Notes under the pieces: generated by a model
Told to the model about the DNA's origin: nothing
The model's database searches: none
What the model saw: only the letters and a program-made list of their open reading frames with translations
Shown here: positions 1-43,872 of the stretch, in pieces
Layout: every line of letters begins with the position of its first letter
How positions within the stretch are numbered: the first letter of the stretch is position 1
From: a virus
Strand: one strand, 5' to 3'
DNA length: 43,872 nucleotides
Virus record (IMG/VR): IMGVR_UViG_3300017732_000017
Span: 1 to 43,872 of that record
Program-made: the position numbers and the translations under genes

Positions 1-123
1 TCTCCGCGACAGAAAGTATCATGAGCAACGTAAACGCTGGCGGCTTGATAGCTATGACCACAAACAGGACGACCTCGATTGATGTGTCGGGGTCGTCCCT
101 GACTTTACCCACAACAACAACAA
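1..123. repeat. Terminal direct repeat, left copy
   Basis: The first 123 bases are identical to the last 123 (43750-43872), read base by base at both ends. An exact overlap of this kind is what an assembler leaves when it linearises a circular or terminally redundant molecule. The repeat cuts through a small ORF and a hairpin, so I treat it as an assembly overlap and not as the physical phage end. The true terminal repeat, if any, could lie elsewhere. Confidence 0.95.
67..98 (+). other. Stable hairpin upstream of the Ubl gene
   Basis: Arms GGACGACCTCG (67-77) and CGGGGTCGTCC (88-98) pair over 11 bp with one G-T pair around a 10-base loop. The stem is followed by CTGACTTTA, not a clean T run, so it is a weak or factor-assisted terminator or an RNA-processing/protective stem. 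It overlaps the end of the 49-codon ORF that crosses the contig ends (second copy at 43816-43847). An unstructured CAA-rich leader follows it to the Ubl start. Confidence 0.6.
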
Positions 124-144
124 CAAACAACCCAAGGAAACACC

Positions 145-363
145 ATGAACATAACCATAAAGTATGGCATCAGCAATAGCATCACTAAAACAGTAGACGA
201 CGAATCTACTGTTGATGATGTTATCGACAGCAACACCCTTGCCGCTCTCAATGCCCCCGAAGGCATTGCTGTAGTGCGCAACGGAAACACGCTGTCCGAA
301 GACACATCGTTGTATGACGGCGATGTTATCTATCTGGAACAACGCTCTTCTAGCAAGGCGTAG
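145..363 (+). CDS. Ubiquitin-like beta-grasp protein (phage Ubl)
   Basis: A 72-residue protein with the pattern of a beta-grasp Ubl of the MoaD/ThiS/PRTRC-C type: strand MNITIKYG, strand SITKTV, helix at about 21-37, strand GIAVVRNG (40-47), then LYDGDVIYLEQ (57-67), the conserved 'DGD-V-I-x-L' last strand of the fold. A good Shine-Dalgarno (AAGGA) lies 7 bases before the ATG. It is the first gene of a cluster that also encodes E2-like, E1-like and JAB proteins, so it is probably the protein modifier those enzymes activate, conjugate and remove. Oddity: the C-terminus reads SSSKA with no diglycine, so either Ala is the reacting end or the JAB protein trims the tail first. Hairpins flank the gene on both sides, so its dosage may be set apart from the enzymes. 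The fold call is by eye. An unrelated small beta protein is the alternative. Confidence 0.75.
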   Translation: MNITIKYGISNSITKTVDDESTVDDVIDSNTLAALNAPEGIAVVRNGNTLSEDTSLYDGDVIYLEQRSSSKA

Positions 364-396
364 CTTTTAGCTCACGTTTCCAGATTGTTGTAAAAC

Positions 397-424
397 GTCC
401 CGCTCCCTGTGTAGGGAGCGGGAC
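397..424. other. Perfect 12-bp hairpin between Ubl and E2-like genes
   Basis: GTCCCGCTCCCT (397-408), loop GTGT, AGGGAGCGGGAC (413-424), all 12 pairs Watson-Crick. On the plus strand it is followed by TAACCC, with no T run; on the minus strand GTTTTA follows. It is therefore not a canonical plus-strand intrinsic terminator. It may be a leaky terminator, an RNase-processing site or a 3' stabiliser that lets the Ubl message exceed that of the enzymes. A CAA-rich leader without Shine-Dalgarno leads to the next gene. Confidence 0.75.
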
Positions 425-451
425 TAACCCAAACAAAAACAACCAAACAGT

Positions 452-1393
452 ATGATTGAAAATACCGAACTAATAATCAAGGGTAATACTCTTGTTCAAC
501 GCAAAACACTAGACTTGCCTCTAGAAAACAGTGAGAAAATCTTCACTGAATTCATTAACCGGCAGCAAAAAAACTCGTACGCACCTTGTTCTACTGACTA
601 TTTCAGTAAAATTTATCCTGAATTTGTAGAAAAGTCTTGGATGTTATCCAAAGACTTCAGTCAAGACTTCACTGCAGTACACAAAGTCAAACACTTCCCC
701 ATCAACCACGTTTACGGCTGGCGTTTGAATGACAGAGAACAAAGCTGCGTAGAAACTAGATCTTATTGGTTTACTTCTAGTGAATTAACACAGTCTCCTA
801 CTTACTCTGTTAATTACATAGCCTCAAACAGCTACGACACCGACACCGAGTTCTTAGCAGATCTAGATAAAAACTCACGAGACAACGTTAAATTTTTTCC
901 TAACAATCAAATCTTCTGGTCAGACCCACGCTTTGACTTGTTTGTAGCTAACTTCTTCCCTGAAAGTCCTCACGTTTACTTCTTTGCGATAGAAGCACAG
1001 ACTATTGACTTTATAAACAGAGAAAACAACAGAGTTATTCAAAGCCCAAGAATTCCTGTATGTCCAGCTTTGCCAAACATATACGACAACTCAAAAGTGT
1101 GTATGGGTTATGACTACGATGAAGCTATCAACGATTACGGCTACATGGACAAGCAGTTGATGATTCTAGATACTATACAAAAAACCTCATCTAATCGCGA
1201 TCTAGACGTAGATGGCACAAAAGCAAACATGACGGTAGACGAAAACAACAAGGCTATCCCAATACACAAAGAGACTATTTATCGAGCAGATAATTACTCT
1301 ACCGTACTAAGCGCAAGCGCGCCTTTCAGAGAAATAACTAACAGCAACATAATACAATTCGCTCAAACCTATATCAACAATGAACTCTTCTAA
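452..1393 (+). CDS. E2-like conjugating protein, PRTRC protein B-like
   Basis: 313 residues. The middle of the protein has the layout I know from PRTRC system protein B and related prokaryotic E2-like proteins: hydrophobic strand VYFFAI (175-180), then PALPNIYDNSKVCMG (205-219), matching the family's 'P.WNVYdDGsVCLG' block. C217 would be the acceptor of the Ubl thioester from the E1-like enzyme. The N-terminal ~150 residues and the C-terminal ~90 are not recognised. The gene follows the hairpin and an A/C-rich leader with no visible Shine-Dalgarno, and overlaps the next gene by 14 bases. It is probably cytoplasmic; no signal peptide or membrane segment is visible. The assignment rests on the Cys block and on the neighbours. 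A structure prediction showing the E2/UBC fold would settle it. Confidence 0.65.
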   Translation: MIENTELIIKGNTLVQRKTLDLPLENSEKIFTEFINRQQKNSYAPCSTDYFSKIYPEFVEKSWMLSKDFSQDFTAVHKVKHFPINHVYGWRLNDREQSCVETRSYWFTSSELTQSPTYSVNYIASNSYDTDTEFLADLDKNSRDNVKFFPNNQIFWSDPRFDLFVANFFPESPHVYFFAIEAQTIDFINRENNRVIQSPRIPVCPALPNIYDNSKVCMGYDYDEAINDYGYMDKQLMILDTIQKTSSNRDLDVDGTKANMTVDENNKAIPIHKETIYRADNYSTVLSASAPFREITNSNIIQFAQTYINNELF

Positions 1394-1859
1394 CACGCAC
1401 GAGCAGTCTTTAAAAAATATAATTGAAGACACTAATCAAGAACAAGTATCCTTTGACTACAAAAGCTCAGGTTATTTCAAGCGTATAAAGCTTTTAAATT
1501 CAAAACAAGAAGATGAAAATCTTCTTATAAATTTCGGAGAATACCAGCTTTTCAGAGCTTGGGTTAATGATCTTGAAATCAACGAAGAAAGAACCCGAAT
1601 AAAGCAAATAGCCAACGACCAAATGCCCATACAAGATCACCAAGTTCTAAGAAATCTTTACTTCGGCACCTACCCTAACTCAACAAAAGCTAAAAACGCT
1701 ATCCGACGTATGATTAAAAAGTACAAAGAGTTGTATTCAGATAAACCTAACAACAACACTAAGTATTTAACAGACCTAATAAAAGGCAAAGAACAATGTC
1801 TTGCTGCCGACTCTGCACAAGCAATCCGACAACAACTATCCAATCTAAATTATGAATAA
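1380..1859 (+). CDS. Unknown protein inside the Ubl cassette
   Basis: 159 residues, strongly charged and Lys/Asn-rich, predicted mostly helical by eye, with no family I recognise. A helix-rich middle (about 85-130) contains a basic stretch RRMIKKYKELY. It has only one cysteine (near the C-terminus) and so is not a RING-type zinc protein. It overlaps the E2-like gene by 14 bases and the E1-like gene by 8, so it is translationally embedded in the cassette. That makes an accessory role (target adaptor, E3-like factor, or the substrate itself) a reasonable guess, but nothing in the sequence shows it. I do not recall an equivalent in PRTRC or Bil operons. Confidence 0.8.
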   Translation: MNSSNTHEQSLKNIIEDTNQEQVSFDYKSSGYFKRIKLLNSKQEDENLLINFGEYQLFRAWVNDLEINEERTRIKQIANDQMPIQDHQVLRNLYFGTYPNSTKAKNAIRRMIKKYKELYSDKPNNNTKYLTDLIKGKEQCLAADSAQAIRQQLSNLNYE

Positions 1860-2637
1860 TAAAAACCACACAATACTTATAGGTGCAGGCGGCGTATCGT
1901 CCTACCTTGTGCCCGCATGGCGCAAAACATTCCCCCATGACAACCTTATTATCATGGACGGAGATCGCTTAGAAAAACGCAACCTTGACCGTCAGCTTTT
2001 CGATTCTAGTGCCATTGGTCAATACAAAGCAACAGCACTAGCAGAAAAATACGGTTGTAAAGCTATCAACGAATACTTTGACAGTACAAGTCTATCGTCC
2101 AACAGCCTAGAACCTAAAGACATCAACTGTGTTCTATGCGCCGTTGACAACCACGTAGCGAGATACGAAACAATTAAATTCAGCCACGATAACAGGTCTT
2201 GGGACATATCAGCAATCATCGGAGCTAATGAATACTGGACAAGCCAAGCATATATATTCAATCCAACAATCCAAGAAATGTACATCGACAACAAACCTTG
2301 GCCTTTGTTCAAGTATCCTGAAATTGCTACCGATAAATCTCACGACCCAACTAATCCAAGCTGCGTAGAACAACAAGAAAGCGACCCTCAGCTTGCTGGC
2401 GTTAATATGATTACCGCTAGCCTTATGATGCAATTAGCTCTGCGACACACTGAGCAATGCTTAATTGGTTCTGATGTATTCAGAGAACGAACCTTTGCAG
2501 ACTTAGCCTACGCACCTACAGAATTCCAAACAACTTTTGGAGCAACCCAAACTCAACAACTAATAGATCATGACAAAATCAAAGCACCCACAATCCAAGA
2601 AGAAAAAACCCGAGAAGATAACTTATTGCTTGCATGA
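1852..2637 (+). CDS. ThiF/E1-like Ubl-activating enzyme
   Basis: 261 residues with the ThiF/MoeB/E1 Rossmann adenylation fold: nucleotide loop GAGGVS (11-16), MDGD acidic pair (35-38), N44 and R47 in NLDRQ, K59, and CAVDN (96-100) near the end of the fold. A NPSC motif (168-171) precedes a long hydrophobic helix (about 183-198), the same arrangement as the PSC block in PRTRC-type ThiF proteins, so C171 is the candidate Ubl thioester cysteine. No pair of CxxC zinc motifs is present, unlike MoeB. It should adenylate the C-terminus of the 72-residue Ubl and pass it to the E2-like protein. The gene overlaps its upstream neighbour by 8 bases and the JAB gene by 68 bases, an unusually long overlap. 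Confidence 0.85.
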   Translation: MNNKNHTILIGAGGVSSYLVPAWRKTFPHDNLIIMDGDRLEKRNLDRQLFDSSAIGQYKATALAEKYGCKAINEYFDSTSLSSNSLEPKDINCVLCAVDNHVARYETIKFSHDNRSWDISAIIGANEYWTSQAYIFNPTIQEMYIDNKPWPLFKYPEIATDKSHDPTNPSCVEQQESDPQLAGVNMITASLMMQLALRHTEQCLIGSDVFRERTFADLAYAPTEFQTTFGATQTQQLIDHDKIKAPTIQEEKTREDNLLLA

Positions 2638-3445
2638 CAACGCAGTATATCAAGAGCACAAAAAACCTCTGTACAGTTGCTGGCGACAAGTAGACATCCC
2701 TGAAGCAGATGAAAACTTTAATGGTTTTACGTGGAACGGCCCCAAGATCCCCTACGATCTTTGGACTTACATTGTATTATTTCACAGATATTCTGTAAAA
2801 AAGCTTAACTCAGAAACCTTAAACTTCTTGTTCTTTGATCCCGATAACAAAAAAGAACCGTGGCAGTGTTGGGTTCCTCCTCAAAAAACTAGCGGCATGT
2901 CCGTAGAAACCGATACAGAACACGACCTATACGACAAAGAACGTAACAAATATCACAACCTGCAATTCGGCACTGTCCACAATCATGTAACCCTGAGTGC
3001 TTTTCAATCAGGCACTGACGAGATGGACGAGATAGAGAAAGAAGGCTTCCACATAACTGTCGGCGAATGCGATGAAGAAATCATAGATATACATGTACGT
3101 GCTGTTATGGAACAAGAACAGTACGATATAAATATTGCAGACATTGTAGAACTTCCCACTTGGATGCAATCTGTGCCAGAAAAATACCAAAAATACTTAA
3201 TTGTAAACAATTTGTTTTCAGTAAGCCTTGATGATTACGATGAAAAATCTGTTGCAGAGTTGTACGACCCTCAACTAACTAAGGTATCAAGAAATGTTGT
3301 GTCCTACCCAAAAAACAGAAAAAACTCTTTCATGCACCAACAAGGGAACCTGTATATTGGAGGAACTGCCGACCACCCGTGGGAAAATGACTTTAACAAC
3401 CTAGACCCTGTAAACCCTCAGTGGCCTAATAAATTTAAGTATTGA
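2570..3445 (+). CDS. JAB/JAMM-family metallo-isopeptidase (PRTRC-A-like)
   Basis: 291 residues. Residues 137-150 hold H137-x-H139, seven residues, S147-x2-D150, the exact spacing of the JAMM zinc motif. This is followed by GFHITVG (159-165), a strand-turn typical of bacterial JAB domains, including PRTRC protein A. E82 (in SETLNFLF) is the candidate catalytic Glu and is followed by the VPPQ..SG block (102-109). The likely role is trimming the Ubl precursor or removing the Ubl from targets. The N-terminus (residues 3-16) is very basic. The last ~70 residues are an unassigned extension. The start lies 68 bases inside the E1-like gene; no other Met occurs before the core, so that start is needed. 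The stop overlaps the next start (TTGA). The His-Asn-His triplet is part of JAMM, not an HNH nuclease. Confidence 0.85.
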   Translation: MTKSKHPQSKKKKPEKITYCLHDNAVYQEHKKPLYSCWRQVDIPEADENFNGFTWNGPKIPYDLWTYIVLFHRYSVKKLNSETLNFLFFDPDNKKEPWQCWVPPQKTSGMSVETDTEHDLYDKERNKYHNLQFGTVHNHVTLSAFQSGTDEMDEIEKEGFHITVGECDEEIIDIHVRAVMEQEQYDINIADIVELPTWMQSVPEKYQKYLIVNNLFSVSLDDYDEKSVAELYDPQLTKVSRNVVSYPKNRKNSFMHQQGNLYIGGTADHPWENDFNNLDPVNPQWPNKFKY

Positions 3446-3822
3446 AAGAATCTCAATTTAAAGCCTTTTTTGTCAAAGCTCTAAGAACTAATGGTTGTTT
3501 CGTTCAAACGATTGAAACGACCACAGGAAGAGGAGTCCCCGATCTTGTCGCTTTGCGCTCCAACCGTACATACTGGATAGAAATAAAAGTCGGATACGGT
3601 AACACCGTAACAATACGGCCAGAACAGTACGCTTGGATGCGCAAGGCCAAGGGTCAAAACGTAGATGTTTACGTTGCTATGCTTGACAAGAAAACTGACG
3701 AGCTCAAAGTCTTCGCTTCTTCAGAGGGAGTTCCTCGCGCAAAAGGATGGATGCTTGAATTTCCAATTTACGTGTTCCCAAAGAAAAATTTAGCCAAACA
3801 AATAACCCAATGGATACAATAA
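3442..3822 (+). CDS. VRR-NUC (PD-(D/E)XK) nuclease
   Basis: 126 residues starting at TTG, which overlaps the previous stop in TTGA. No ATG is near, and the family's N-terminal helix (ESQFKAFFVKAL) begins right after. Motifs: GVPDL (31-35) with D34, the EIK pair E47-x-K49, and RPEQ (59-62), the VRR-NUC signature. Stand-alone VRR-NUC proteins of this size are common in phage replication modules, where they act on branched or flapped DNA; here that role is inferred. The gene sits between the Ubl cassette and the DNA polymerase and overlaps the polymerase start by 13 bases, so the three are translationally coupled. Confidence 0.85.
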   Translation: MKESQFKAFFVKALRTNGCFVQTIETTTGRGVPDLVALRSNRTYWIEIKVGYGNTVTIRPEQYAWMRKAKGQNVDVYVAMLDKKTDELKVFASSEGVPRAKGWMLEFPIYVFPKKNLAKQITQWIQ

Positions 3823-5636
3823 AAGGGCTACAGCTACCCCTGTTCGACATTGAAAGCACTTGGCGACCACCCGCTAAAATACTCAACACCGCTAGCACAA
3901 TAGCAGTAGACTTAGAAACAAGAGATCCTTTCCTAAAAAGGAGAGGGCCCGGGTTTTTGTACGGTCAAGGAGAACCAATAGGAGTAGCCATTGCTACAAA
4001 AGAAGGTAAGATGTATTTACCTTTCAACCACCAAGGCGGAGACAATTTAGACCTATACCTAGTTAAAATGATAACTAAGGATTTTATGTCTAAAGCTGAC
4101 GAAATCGTCATGGCTAATGCCACTTATGATCTAGGTTGGCTGTTAGAGTGGGGCGTACCAATGCCCCGAGGAATTGTAAGAGACGTACAAGTAGCCGAAG
4201 CATTAATTGATGAGGAGCAACGATCTTACAGTTTAAACACGCTTTCTTTAAAGTATCTCAACGTAGAGAAAAACGAAAGTATGCTTAGGCAAGCTGCAGA
4301 AACCTATCGCATAAATCCTAAAAGCGAAATGTGGAAACTTCCTGCTCGCTACGTTGGAGCGTATGCTGAAGATGACGCAGCTCAAACGCTTTTATGCTAC
4401 GAGAAACAAAAACCTCAACTATCTGAGCTAGGCCTTTGGAAAGTATGGGATCTTGAATGCGACATAACCAAGATCTGCTCGAAGATGACTAGAAAAGGAA
4501 TCCGAGTAGACCTAGATGCTGCTTCCCAACTTAACGAAAAGCTTAAAAAAGAAGAAACAGAAATAAAAAACCGCCTACATTTTAACGTAAACTCAGCCAA
4601 CGAGGTTGCAAATTTCTTAGAGAAAACGTTCAAAGAAAAAGTACCTAAAACTCTCAAAGGAAACTATTCAATAACAGATCAATATCTCAACGAACTAGGC
4701 TACAAAGAAGCTAAAGAGATTGTACATTTACGACAACTAACTAGGCTTCGAAAGACCTTCATAGAAGAAGGTGTACTAGAAAAGAGCTACAAAGGACGCA
4801 TTCATGCGGAGTTTAAGCAAACTACGTCTGAAGATGGAGGAACTAGATCTGGCAGGTTTTCTTCTAAAAACCCAAACATGCAACAAGTACCTGCTCGTTC
4901 CGAAATAGGTCAGATAATACGGAAGCTGTACATAGCTGAAGAAGATTCCCTCTGGGCTAAGTGTGACTACAGTAGCCAAGAGCCTAGACTTCAGGTGCAT
5001 TACGGCATAGTTCTAGGATTAAAAGGAGCTAAGGAAGCAAAGAAAGCTTTCGACGAAGGCGTTAAAATCTACACGTTTTTAGAAGACAATACTGGACTGC
5101 CTTACGCCACCTGTAAGATGCTAGTCCTCGGCATTGGTTACGGCATGGGCGTCAACTCTATGGCTGATAAACTCAACATATCAGTCAACGAATGCGAACG
5201 TATTAGACAAACGTTTCAGCAAAAAGTGCCGTACATCCAACAACTTTTCGACAGGTGTCGAGCAAAAGCCCAAAAAGACGGCTTTATTCGCACTGTTCTA
5301 GGACGTCGTTCTAACTTCCCGTGGTGGGAGTCTGGTAACGAACGTGTCAAAGGATACGAAAATGCAAAGAAAAAGCTTGGCAGAAGCATCAGTAGAGCTT
5401 TTACCAATAACGCCCTCAATAGATTGATTCAGGGATCAGCTGCCGATCAAGCTAAACTAGCTATGAAACTTTGCGACGAGCAAGGTTTCGACATACGGCT
5501 TCCTGTCCACGATGAAATCAATGCGATTGTGCAGAACCCGAAACAAGCAACCGAAATAAAAGAGATCATGGAACAAGCCATTAAGTTTGAATTAGACTTT
5601 GTAGCTGACCTAGATCTCGGAACCAGTTGGAAATGA
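3810..5636 (+). CDS. polA: Family A DNA polymerase with 3'-5' exonuclease
   Basis: 608 residues. Exonuclease domain: ExoI D34/E36 (AVDLE), ExoII N103-x3-D107 (NATYD), ExoIII Y185-x3-D189. Polymerase domain: GGTRSGRFSSKNPNMQQVP (template-binding block), motif A D386 in DYSSQE, motif B K436-x3-L440-x3-Y444-G445, motif C HDE (567-569). There is no 5'-nuclease domain, as is usual in phages. L440 sits at the position of E. coli Pol I Phe762 and T7 Tyr526. Leu here is known as a major marine-viral variant. It replicates phage DNA together with the downstream primase and helicases. It starts inside the VRR-NUC gene (13-base overlap) and ends with an ATGA overlap onto the next gene. Confidence 0.97.
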   Translation: MDTIKGLQLPLFDIESTWRPPAKILNTASTIAVDLETRDPFLKRRGPGFLYGQGEPIGVAIATKEGKMYLPFNHQGGDNLDLYLVKMITKDFMSKADEIVMANATYDLGWLLEWGVPMPRGIVRDVQVAEALIDEEQRSYSLNTLSLKYLNVEKNESMLRQAAETYRINPKSEMWKLPARYVGAYAEDDAAQTLLCYEKQKPQLSELGLWKVWDLECDITKICSKMTRKGIRVDLDAASQLNEKLKKEETEIKNRLHFNVNSANEVANFLEKTFKEKVPKTLKGNYSITDQYLNELGYKEAKEIVHLRQLTRLRKTFIEEGVLEKSYKGRIHAEFKQTTSEDGGTRSGRFSSKNPNMQQVPARSEIGQIIRKLYIAEEDSLWAKCDYSSQEPRLQVHYGIVLGLKGAKEAKKAFDEGVKIYTFLEDNTGLPYATCKMLVLGIGYGMGVNSMADKLNISVNECERIRQTFQQKVPYIQQLFDRCRAKAQKDGFIRTVLGRRSNFPWWESGNERVKGYENAKKKLGRSISRAFTNNALNRLIQGSAADQAKLAMKLCDEQGFDIRLPVHDEINAIVQNPKQATEIKEIMEQAIKFELDFVADLDLGTSWK

Positions 5637-43258: not shown

Positions 43259-43355
43259 CCTACTACTATTCGCCCTCGTAATATACTTCACTTGGCAGTT
43301 CGCTGCTGGGTACTCGCACAAAGATCACAAAGATCATGGAGATTCTAACTCTTAG
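43251..43355 (+). CDS. 34-residue single-span membrane peptide
   Basis: ATG at 43251 overlaps the previous stop; TAG at 43355 lies inside the next gene. One membrane segment (NLLLFALVIYFTWQFAAGY) is followed by a His/Asp/Lys tail (HKDHKDHGDSNS) that could bind metal. Overlaps on both sides support expression. Confidence 0.55.
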   Translation: MDNLLLFALVIYFTWQFAAGYSHKDHKDHGDSNS

Positions 43356-43572
43356 CCTAATTGCAGGACTCGGTATATTGTTCACTCTTGTGCGCACTGT
43401 GCCGTACAAATTTCTTATCCGTCACCACATCTGGTTCGACATATTCTTCACTGCACTACTGCCGTGGTTATTCGCTGGCAGCTTGCAGGGTATGATGATC
43501 GCCGTGTTCAGTGGCATCACTGTCACTGTCAGTCTTTGTATACTATCTATCTTCACCCCCAAACCAACCTAA
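43336..43572 (+). CDS. Small integral membrane protein
   Basis: 78 residues with three hydrophobic segments: ILTLSLIAGLGILFTLV, WFDIFFTALLPWLFAG and MIAVFSGITVTVSLCILSIF, joined by a short basic loop (VPYKFLIRHH). It overlaps the 34-residue membrane peptide by 20 bases and is followed by a terminator. It may be an early membrane modifier such as a superinfection-exclusion protein, or a holin-like protein; there is no motif to choose. Confidence 0.75.
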   Translation: MEILTLSLIAGLGILFTLVRTVPYKFLIRHHIWFDIFFTALLPWLFAGSLQGMMIAVFSGITVTVSLCILSIFTPKPT

Positions 43573-43681: not shown

Positions 43682-43831
43682 ATGCGGACAATGCTAGCAA
43701 AGGTACTAGCCTTCTTGCTTCCAGTGTTCATCGAAGCCATGATACAAGTTCTCCGCGACAGAAAGTATCATGAGCAACGTAAACGCTGGCGGCTTGATAG
43801 CTATGACCACAAACAGGACGACCTCGATTGA
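43682..43831 (+). CDS. 49-residue membrane-anchored peptide across the contig junction
   Basis: ATG at 43682, TGA at 43829-43831. A hydrophobic segment (MLAKVLAFLLPVFIEAMI) is followed by a very charged tail (RDRKYHEQRKRWRLDSYDH), the build of a single-span membrane protein with a cytoplasmic tail. Its 3' end lies inside the 123-bp terminal repeat, so the left copy (1-82) shows only the truncated end. The stem-loop at 43816-43847 overlaps its stop. It directly precedes the Ubl gene on the circle. No family recognised. Confidence 0.55.
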   Translation: MRTMLAKVLAFLLPVFIEAMIQVLRDRKYHEQRKRWRLDSYDHKQDDLD

Positions 43832-43872
43832 TGTGTCGGGGTCGTCCCTGACTTTACCCACAACAACAACAA
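43750..43872. repeat. Terminal direct repeat, right copy
   Basis: Identical to 1-123. Joining the two copies gives a circular map of 43,749 bp and a continuous early unit from 41912 through the ends to 11851. Confidence 0.95.

Follow-up and report, generated by a model that had tools for sequence, protein, structure and literature searches.

A PRTRC-related phage cassette predicted to encode a ubiquitin-like conjugation pathway

The window analysed here is the whole of IMG/VR virus record IMGVR_UViG_3300017732_000017 (43,872 bases), and the element under study is a cassette of five genes at positions 145-3445. The genes were assigned to a ubiquitin-like protein (Ubl), an E2-like protein, a small helical protein, a ThiF/E1-like enzyme and a JAB/JAMM metallopeptidase (Table 1). 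The original prediction, made from the DNA letters, described five consecutive, mostly overlapping genes with named motifs, and all five open reading frames (ORFs) and their motifs were found to be present. A gap of 88 nt separates the Ubl and E2-like genes, and from the E2-like gene through to a DNA polymerase gene downstream of the cassette each gene overlaps the next. Family hidden Markov models (HMMs) built without the window recovered the window proteins with E-values of 4e-23 (Ubl), 1.6e-7 (E2, from 21 relatives), 1e-57 (ThiF) and 4.5e-64 (JAB), and the cassette is therefore more than a chance arrangement.

The ThiF/E1-like protein matched Pfam ThiF (8.8e-11), and TIGR03736 (PRTRC_ThiF, 1.2e-8) was the best of the NCBI models. 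Comparison with the PRTRC_ThiF set using hhalign gave 7.6e-24, and the PDB sequences nearest to the ThiF profile were UBA3 and UBA2, from the NEDD8 and SUMO E1s. The motifs found were GAGGVS (GxGG), MDGD (D36/D38), NLDRQ (R47-Q48), K59, D99 and NPSC, which includes C171. Residue conservation was counted across 106-128 homologues; D36, D38, N44, K59 and D99 were invariant where aligned, R47/Q48 were present in 122/123 and C171, the putative catalytic Cys of the E1, in 108/110. In Vibrio phage D69, which carries a related gene, the ThiF reading frame continues without a stop ahead of the annotated start (L005:4950-5184) with no ATG, GTG or TTG there, and an unusual start codon, a frameshift or a sequence error may account for this.

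The JAB protein matched TIGR03735 (PRTRC_A) at 8.9e-5 and the PRTRC_A set at 3.2e-16 with hhalign. Its JAMM motif, HNHVTLSAFQSGTD, supplies H137, H139, S147 and D150, and the glutamate is E82. These JAMM/MPN+ metal-binding residues (E, H, H, S, D) were invariant where aligned. W65 and W98 were conserved in most homologues and no N-terminal Arg was invariant. The window protein does not have the C-terminal extension of approximately 80-100 aa found in its clade relatives.

The assignment of the E2-like protein, which we infer, is based on profile homology and a motif. The block PNIYDNSKVCMG holds C217, and the protein contains N209-x7-C217-x-G and N248-x-D250-L251. In the HPN motif of canonical E2s the Asn stands eight residues before the catalytic Cys, the same spacing as that between N209 and C217. 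Both residues were conserved in every ungapped homologue (Cys 103/103, Asn 103/103), and the N-x7-C motif was found in nearly all E2 relatives. N-x-D-L was found in 41/41 E2s of the clade that includes the window (clade I), at the position where a His downstream of the Cys would stand. Matches to PF14460 (Prok-E2_D) were found for 14 of 33 members of the E2 family (best 5e-9) and to TIGR03737 (PRTRC_B) for 7 of the 33 (best 1.5e-5). When the clade E2 profile was aligned with PRTRC_B and phage E2-D proteins (hhalign 3.9e-7, probability 92.8%), C217 aligned with the Cys of PRTRC_B and N209 with its Asn. The original prediction had named loss of C217, C171 or the JAMM residues across homologues as grounds for refutation; these residues are conserved, and the prediction was not refuted on this count.

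The best Pfam match of the Ubl was ThiS (8e-4), and the best PDB sequence matches of the Ubl family profile were redesigned ubiquitins (6.5e-4 and 2.2e-3). The window Ubl is 49% identical to that of relative L008. The window Ubl ends ...YDGDVIYLEQRSSSKA, that is ...RSSSKA, with Ala72 as the last residue. The final five residues read SSSKA in the window, and 36 distinct relatives have ASSKA; SKA was invariant in an alignment of 20 Ubl sequences, and a few relatives carry one or two extra residues. PRTRC_C and the Ubls of the type found in phages Arash and D69 end in G-x-K-G or similar, and the window Ubl and PRTRC_C have a similar T/S-K-G/A tail. Tandem Ubl pairs were found in four relatives (L154, L158, L159 and L160), with each domain ending ANSKA. 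Repeats ending QKA and TKAHDKG were found in the tandem precursors of L047 and L048, and Vibrio phage D69 encodes a three-domain precursor (L005:1382-2173) with three GTKG repeats. Because every domain in these precursors closes with the tail, as in polyubiquitin, the SKA-type tail is probably the mature, conjugated C terminus of the Ubl, released by the JAB protein. Conjugation via a C-terminal Ala has a precedent in the bacterial cGAS of type II cyclic oligonucleotide-based antiphage signalling systems (CBASS), which ends in Gly or Ala (PMC10097602).

The small helical protein occupies the same slot as a protein of 108-121 aa in relatives, to which it showed a weak sequence match (4 of 5000 shuffles scored at least as well). 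Its AlphaFold2 (AF2) model was mainly helical and of low confidence (predicted local distance difference test, pLDDT, 57), too poor for a fold search, and it had no match to PRTRC E or F. Our guess is that it would probably act as an adaptor or substrate-recruiting factor.

Scans of viral contigs using the single sequences of the window ThiF or E2-like protein returned nothing, and alignment-based queries were needed to find relatives. Two scans of IMG/VR viral sequences, using a JAB pattern (80 loci) and a ThiF pattern (78 loci), gave about 126 distinct viral contigs by name, some of them near-identical; most carry ThiF, JAB and E2 together. Among 166 loci from viral contigs, phages, plasmids and metagenome-assembled genomes (MAGs), ThiF was found in 161, JAB in 161, E2 in 136 and the Ubl in 94. 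In 67 new loci seeded with ThiF, JAB was present in 66 and E2 in 64, with the misses mostly at contig ends. In clade I, which has the helical protein, the JAB gene directly follows the ThiF gene, and in a second group one extra gene lies between them. PolA was found downstream of the cassette in all 52 clade I loci with more than 5 kb of downstream sequence, and no sign that the cassette had been lost was seen among the clade I loci examined. Protein distances for all five genes were correlated with those for PolA (Mantel r 0.78-0.90, or 0.74-0.87 without the window; p = 0.0005), and median dN/dS (the ratio of nonsynonymous to synonymous substitution rates) ranged from 0.085 for ThiF to 0.36 for the helical protein, compared with 0.053 for PolA. 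As the distances track PolA and the low dN/dS values reflect purifying selection, the cassette is old and maintained in this lineage.

Relatives were also found outside viral contigs. Of ten MAG contigs identified by a genome scan, the closest belongs to a Sneathiella MAG and may be a binned phage. On an Anabaena plasmid, dnaN, gamma/tau and a polymerase gene adjoin a cassette, and in a Bacillus velezensis plasmid a ThiF gene is near PolIII alpha. Small numbers of Mgm101, RecT, Whirly and DnaB family members were seen among the neighbours of distant viral cassettes. Several deposited phages, namely Salmonella phage Arash, Vibrio phage D69, Bacillus phage KLEB27-3, Acinetobacter phage ME3 and Burkholderia phage BgVeeders33, have a ThiF gene with a neighbouring JAB gene and, in most, an E2-like gene with N-x7-C. 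One scanned member, probably BgVeeders33 (L007), has PRTRC A, B and ThiF proteins of NCBI grade (best values among the scanned members 3.4e-86 for ThiF, 1.2e-66 for A and 4.4e-60 for B). In Arash an unannotated ORF encodes a 66-aa Ubl ending TGTKG (L002:107-307); this ORF and the annotated gp251 overlap in different frames. Virion mass spectrometry has been reported to detect the related ThiF, JAB and E2 proteins of Arash (Gp246-248), in a paper whose text mentions neither ubiquitin nor ThiF (PMC10585845).

The record carries an exact 123-bp direct repeat at both ends, and it is therefore the complete genome, approximately 43.7 kb, of a tailed phage. Downstream of the cassette on the + strand is a replication module that consists of a nuclease, DNA polymerase A, two Pam3-like proteins, an AEP-type primase and two helicases. 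The structural genes, for a portal-like head-tail adaptor, the major head protein and tail proteins, are on the - strand. The nearest relatives of the window polymerase were those of phage DSL-LC04 and Pelagibacter phage HTVC023P (39%), and no annotated cassette genes adjoin the polymerase gene in either phage. The small hydrophobic protein upstream of the Ubl matched 51 ORFs in relatives, and the best of these lie 0.5-1.0 kb upstream of the Ubl gene.

Table 1. Features of the cassette and its surroundings in the window
Feature	Position	Strand	Comment
Ubl gene	145..363	+	72 aa, single beta-grasp ubiquitin-like protein
Hairpin, 12 bp, G+C-rich, GTCCCGCTCCCT-GTGT-AGGGAGCGGGAC	397..424	+	between Ubl and E2; z = -4.67 vs shuffles
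E2-like gene	452..1393	+	313 aa; PRTRC_B / Prok-E2_D related
Small helical protein gene	1380..1859	+	159 aa; assigned by slot and weak sequence match
ThiF/E1-like gene	1852..2637	+	261 aa; Pfam ThiF, TIGR03736
JAB/JAMM metallopeptidase gene	2570..3445	+	291 aa; TIGR03735, JAMM residues
PD-(D/E)XK-type nuclease (Hjc / VRR-NUC like)	3442..3822	+	conserved cassette neighbour
Family A DNA polymerase	3810..5636	+	PF00476, 9e-55; conserved cassette neighbour
AEP-type primase	6995-8557		matches TOTE conflict-system AEP domain PF22548 and phrog_21866
Small hydrophobic protein, probably two transmembrane segments	43336..43572	+	upstream of Ubl across terminal repeat
Direct terminal repeat, 123 bp	43750..43872		identical to 1-123

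A G+C-rich hairpin immediately after the Ubl gene was found in 36 of 53 non-redundant loci, 28 of them with a T run (shuffle means 0.25 and 0); that of the window has no T run. Such a hairpin, often terminator-like, would leave the Ubl in excess over its enzymes by partial termination or protection of the 3'-end. A scan of positions 1-4000 for terminator and promoter consensus sequences gave nothing above shuffles, and Rfam had no match in the window or in eight relatives. A recurrent RNA-like motif (approximately GTCC..TGAG..AAACTGCTC), also with no Rfam match, was seen downstream of the Ubl gene in seven relatives (L020, L022, L025, L027, L029, L031 and L034), and twice in L020. A hammerhead-like element was considered for this GTCC..AAACTGCTC motif and rejected because of a mismatch in the core sequence and the lack of an Rfam hit.

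From these sequence comparisons, we consider it likely that the cassette encodes a complete, reversible Ubl conjugation pathway belonging to the phage itself, a divergent viral branch of the PRTRC/Iyer-2006-type-6d group. In such a pathway the ThiF-fold enzyme, judging from its conserved nucleotide-binding residues, would use ATP to adenylate the carboxylate of Ubl Ala72 and would capture the Ubl as a thioester on C171. In the E2-like protein, C217 would then accept the Ubl, and N209 and N248-x-D250-L251 would aid its transfer to an amino group of the substrate. The JAMM protein would trim tandem or extended Ubl precursors after SKA and would strip the Ubl from substrates. Our guess for the substrates, held with slightly less than even confidence, is replication-stage proteins of the phage or the host, which seem likeliest because the cassette lies between a conserved small membrane protein and the nuclease and polymerase genes and diverges with PolA. 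Synteny with replication genes in the phages and plasmids examined also favours a substrate of this kind. We offer only tentatively the wider proposal that a widespread phage lineage has an essential, vertically inherited Ubl pathway, with a new SKA tail and a new E2 active-site arrangement (N-x7-C and N-x-D-L), that controls phage DNA replication by reversible tagging and is part of core virus biology rather than host defence.

Several points weigh against the presence of a Ubl conjugation pathway or against parts of it. The Ubl lacks a C-terminal Gly and its homology to PRTRC_C was not detectable (hhalign E = 0.083, and no match to the PRTRC_C model). The window E2-like sequence alone matched no family among the Pfam and NCBI models, and its predicted structure (pLDDT 70, predicted template modelling score 0.66) had no significant Foldseek match in PDB or BFVD; E2 chains were listed at ranks 9 and 17 with low probability and were not counted as support. 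The E2 fold that had been expected of this 313-residue protein was thus not recovered by structure comparison, while the profile homology and motif hold. The role given to C171 is one that we infer only. The linkage to replication genes could merely reflect location in the early-gene region, and hairpins were also found at the control position after the JAB gene, though fewer (19/86, with a T run in 10/86). The coverage values for Arash look unusual, and its proteomics were weighed lightly.

It is unlikely that the cassette is instead a defence or superinfection-exclusion module, tagging structural or signalling proteins of rival phages in the way that Bil or type II CBASS would. PADLOC E1-E2 models match the ThiF family (best 8e-10), the NF058523 anti-phage Cap2-like model matches the window ThiF weakly, and Bil is a bacterial operon with the same four activities, but the cassette includes no BilA, BilB, BilC or CBASS partner. 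Phage-borne defence genes usually sit at variable positions, whereas the cassette has a fixed place beside PolA in 52/52 clade I loci and a divergence that tracks PolA.

A counter-defence role, in which the phage Ubl and JAMM protein compete with host conjugates of the Bil or Cap2 type or remove their Ubl and the E1 and E2 make decoy conjugates, seems quite improbable. Hosts do carry Ubl-based defences (PMC10097602), and the well-conserved JAMM peptidase could act on their conjugates. However, stripping conjugates would not require that Ubl, E1 and E2 all be kept with intact active sites; the SKA tail is also a feature of the phage clade, and the clade I loci examined show no sign of losing the cassette.

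We regard as very unlikely a sulfur-carrier pathway, with a Ubl like ThiS/MoaD and an E1 like ThiF/MoeB supplying sulfur for modification of tRNA, nucleotides or DNA and the JAB protein freeing the carrier. This would fit the Pfam ThiS match of the Ubl, the ThiF/MoeB models that match the E1 and the existence of JAB-linked sulfur operons (Iyer et al. 2006, PMC1779556). No rhodanese, SirA or thiotransferase was found among the window proteins scanned, the Ubl tail ends in Ala, there is a dedicated E2-like protein with an invariant Cys, and the E1 profile is nearer to UBA3 and UBA2 than to ThiF or MoeB. That the proteins are structural or assembly factors which merely resemble a Ubl pathway, with the Ubl and JAB like lambda TAPI/TAPK, is barely credible despite the listing of the Arash E2, JAB and ThiF homologues as virion proteins (PMC10585845), as the lambda-type pair has no E1 or E2 and, in the window, the cassette lies with the replication genes and the structural genes are on the other strand.

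Bacterial Ubl conjugation is known mainly from defence (Bil and CBASS), and the PRTRC-type cassettes predicted in 2006 have no known role in the searchable literature. If the cassette does encode a Ubl conjugation pathway, viruses would come into view as carriers of such pathways. The set is compact and complete and keeps its place beside the replication genes of many related phages, which makes it a small, testable model, and the targets of PRTRC-like systems become answerable by proteomics of infected cells.

Among known systems, type II CBASS resembles what is predicted here: Cap2 and Cap3 provide conjugation by an E1 and an E2, with a Gly or Ala as the C-terminal residue that is joined, and removal by a JAB (PMC10097602). 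There a single fused protein supplies E1 and E2, and what is conjugated is a cGAS-like enzyme, whereas in the window they are encoded by separate genes and the conjugated protein would be a Ubl. Bil (BilABCD) has the same activities as the cassette (Ubl, E2, JAB and E1), and the more distant kinship to Bil-type systems that had been suggested for the window did not survive, the likeness going no further than these activities. BilA combines two Ubl domains with a C-terminal Gly, unlike the single 72-aa domain ending in Ala; BilB has a Cys-Glu-His-His motif, while the E2-like protein has Asp, Ala and Gly at C+6, +8 and +13; and BilD pairs inactive with active adenylation domains and adds a Cys domain, while the window ThiF is a single adenylation protein of 261 aa. 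There was no match to BilA, BilB or BilC, BilD was matched at E = 0.036 only, and membership of the Bil group was rejected.

The cassettes of the deposited phages are distant, with ThiF identities of 18-28% and Ubl tails of GTKG where seen. Single genes in them are already annotated as PRTRC-like, and none of these cassettes is described as a Ubl pathway in searchable papers. The open PMC literature, a search that did not extend to subscription papers and most preprints, likewise held no description of a phage Ubl-E1-E2-JAMM pathway, in agreement with the statement in the original prediction that no characterised phage system of this composition is known.

Among the closest known systems are the PRTRC cassettes, in which Ubl, E2-like, JAB and ThiF proteins are also encoded in one operon on mobile replicons. 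The original prediction, that a phage carries a complete Ubl, E1, E2 and JAMM set and that these four are common to PRTRC cassettes (C, B, ThiF and A), was right in outline: the A, B and ThiF proteins are homologous by profile, but homology of the 72-aa Ubl to PRTRC_C was not detectable. The PRTRC gene order is ParB-E-C-F-B-A-ThiF and that of the window is Ubl-E2-helical-ThiF-JAB; no ParB, E or F was identified in the window cassette, where the neighbours are a nuclease and a DNA polymerase. The window proteins score far below the NCBI PRTRC cut-offs (34.5 vs 144.75 bits for ThiF and 22.1 vs 101.8 bits for A). The Ubl tail is G-x-K-G/G-D-R-G in PRTRC and SSKA in the window, and the FTH His of the PRTRC E2 is absent from the window E2, which has N-x-D-L instead.

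Operon type 6d of Iyer et al. (2006), described in a bacterial survey, includes a Ubl with a highly conserved C-terminal Gly, a JAB, an E1, an E2 and an alpha-helical protein (PMC1779556). Its E2 has the Cys, no preceding His and an absolutely conserved downstream His, and its JAB-N has a conserved Arg and Trp (PMC1779556). The five-gene content is alike, with the helical protein likened by fold type and presence, not by homology, and the window E2-like protein likewise has the Cys and no His before it. The window differs in its location in a phage, in the replacement of the C-terminal Gly of the Ubl by Ala and in the replacement of the downstream His of the E2 by N-x-D-L. On profile and motif comparison, the cassette belongs to operon type 6d, the NCBI 'PRTRC' group, as a divergent branch.

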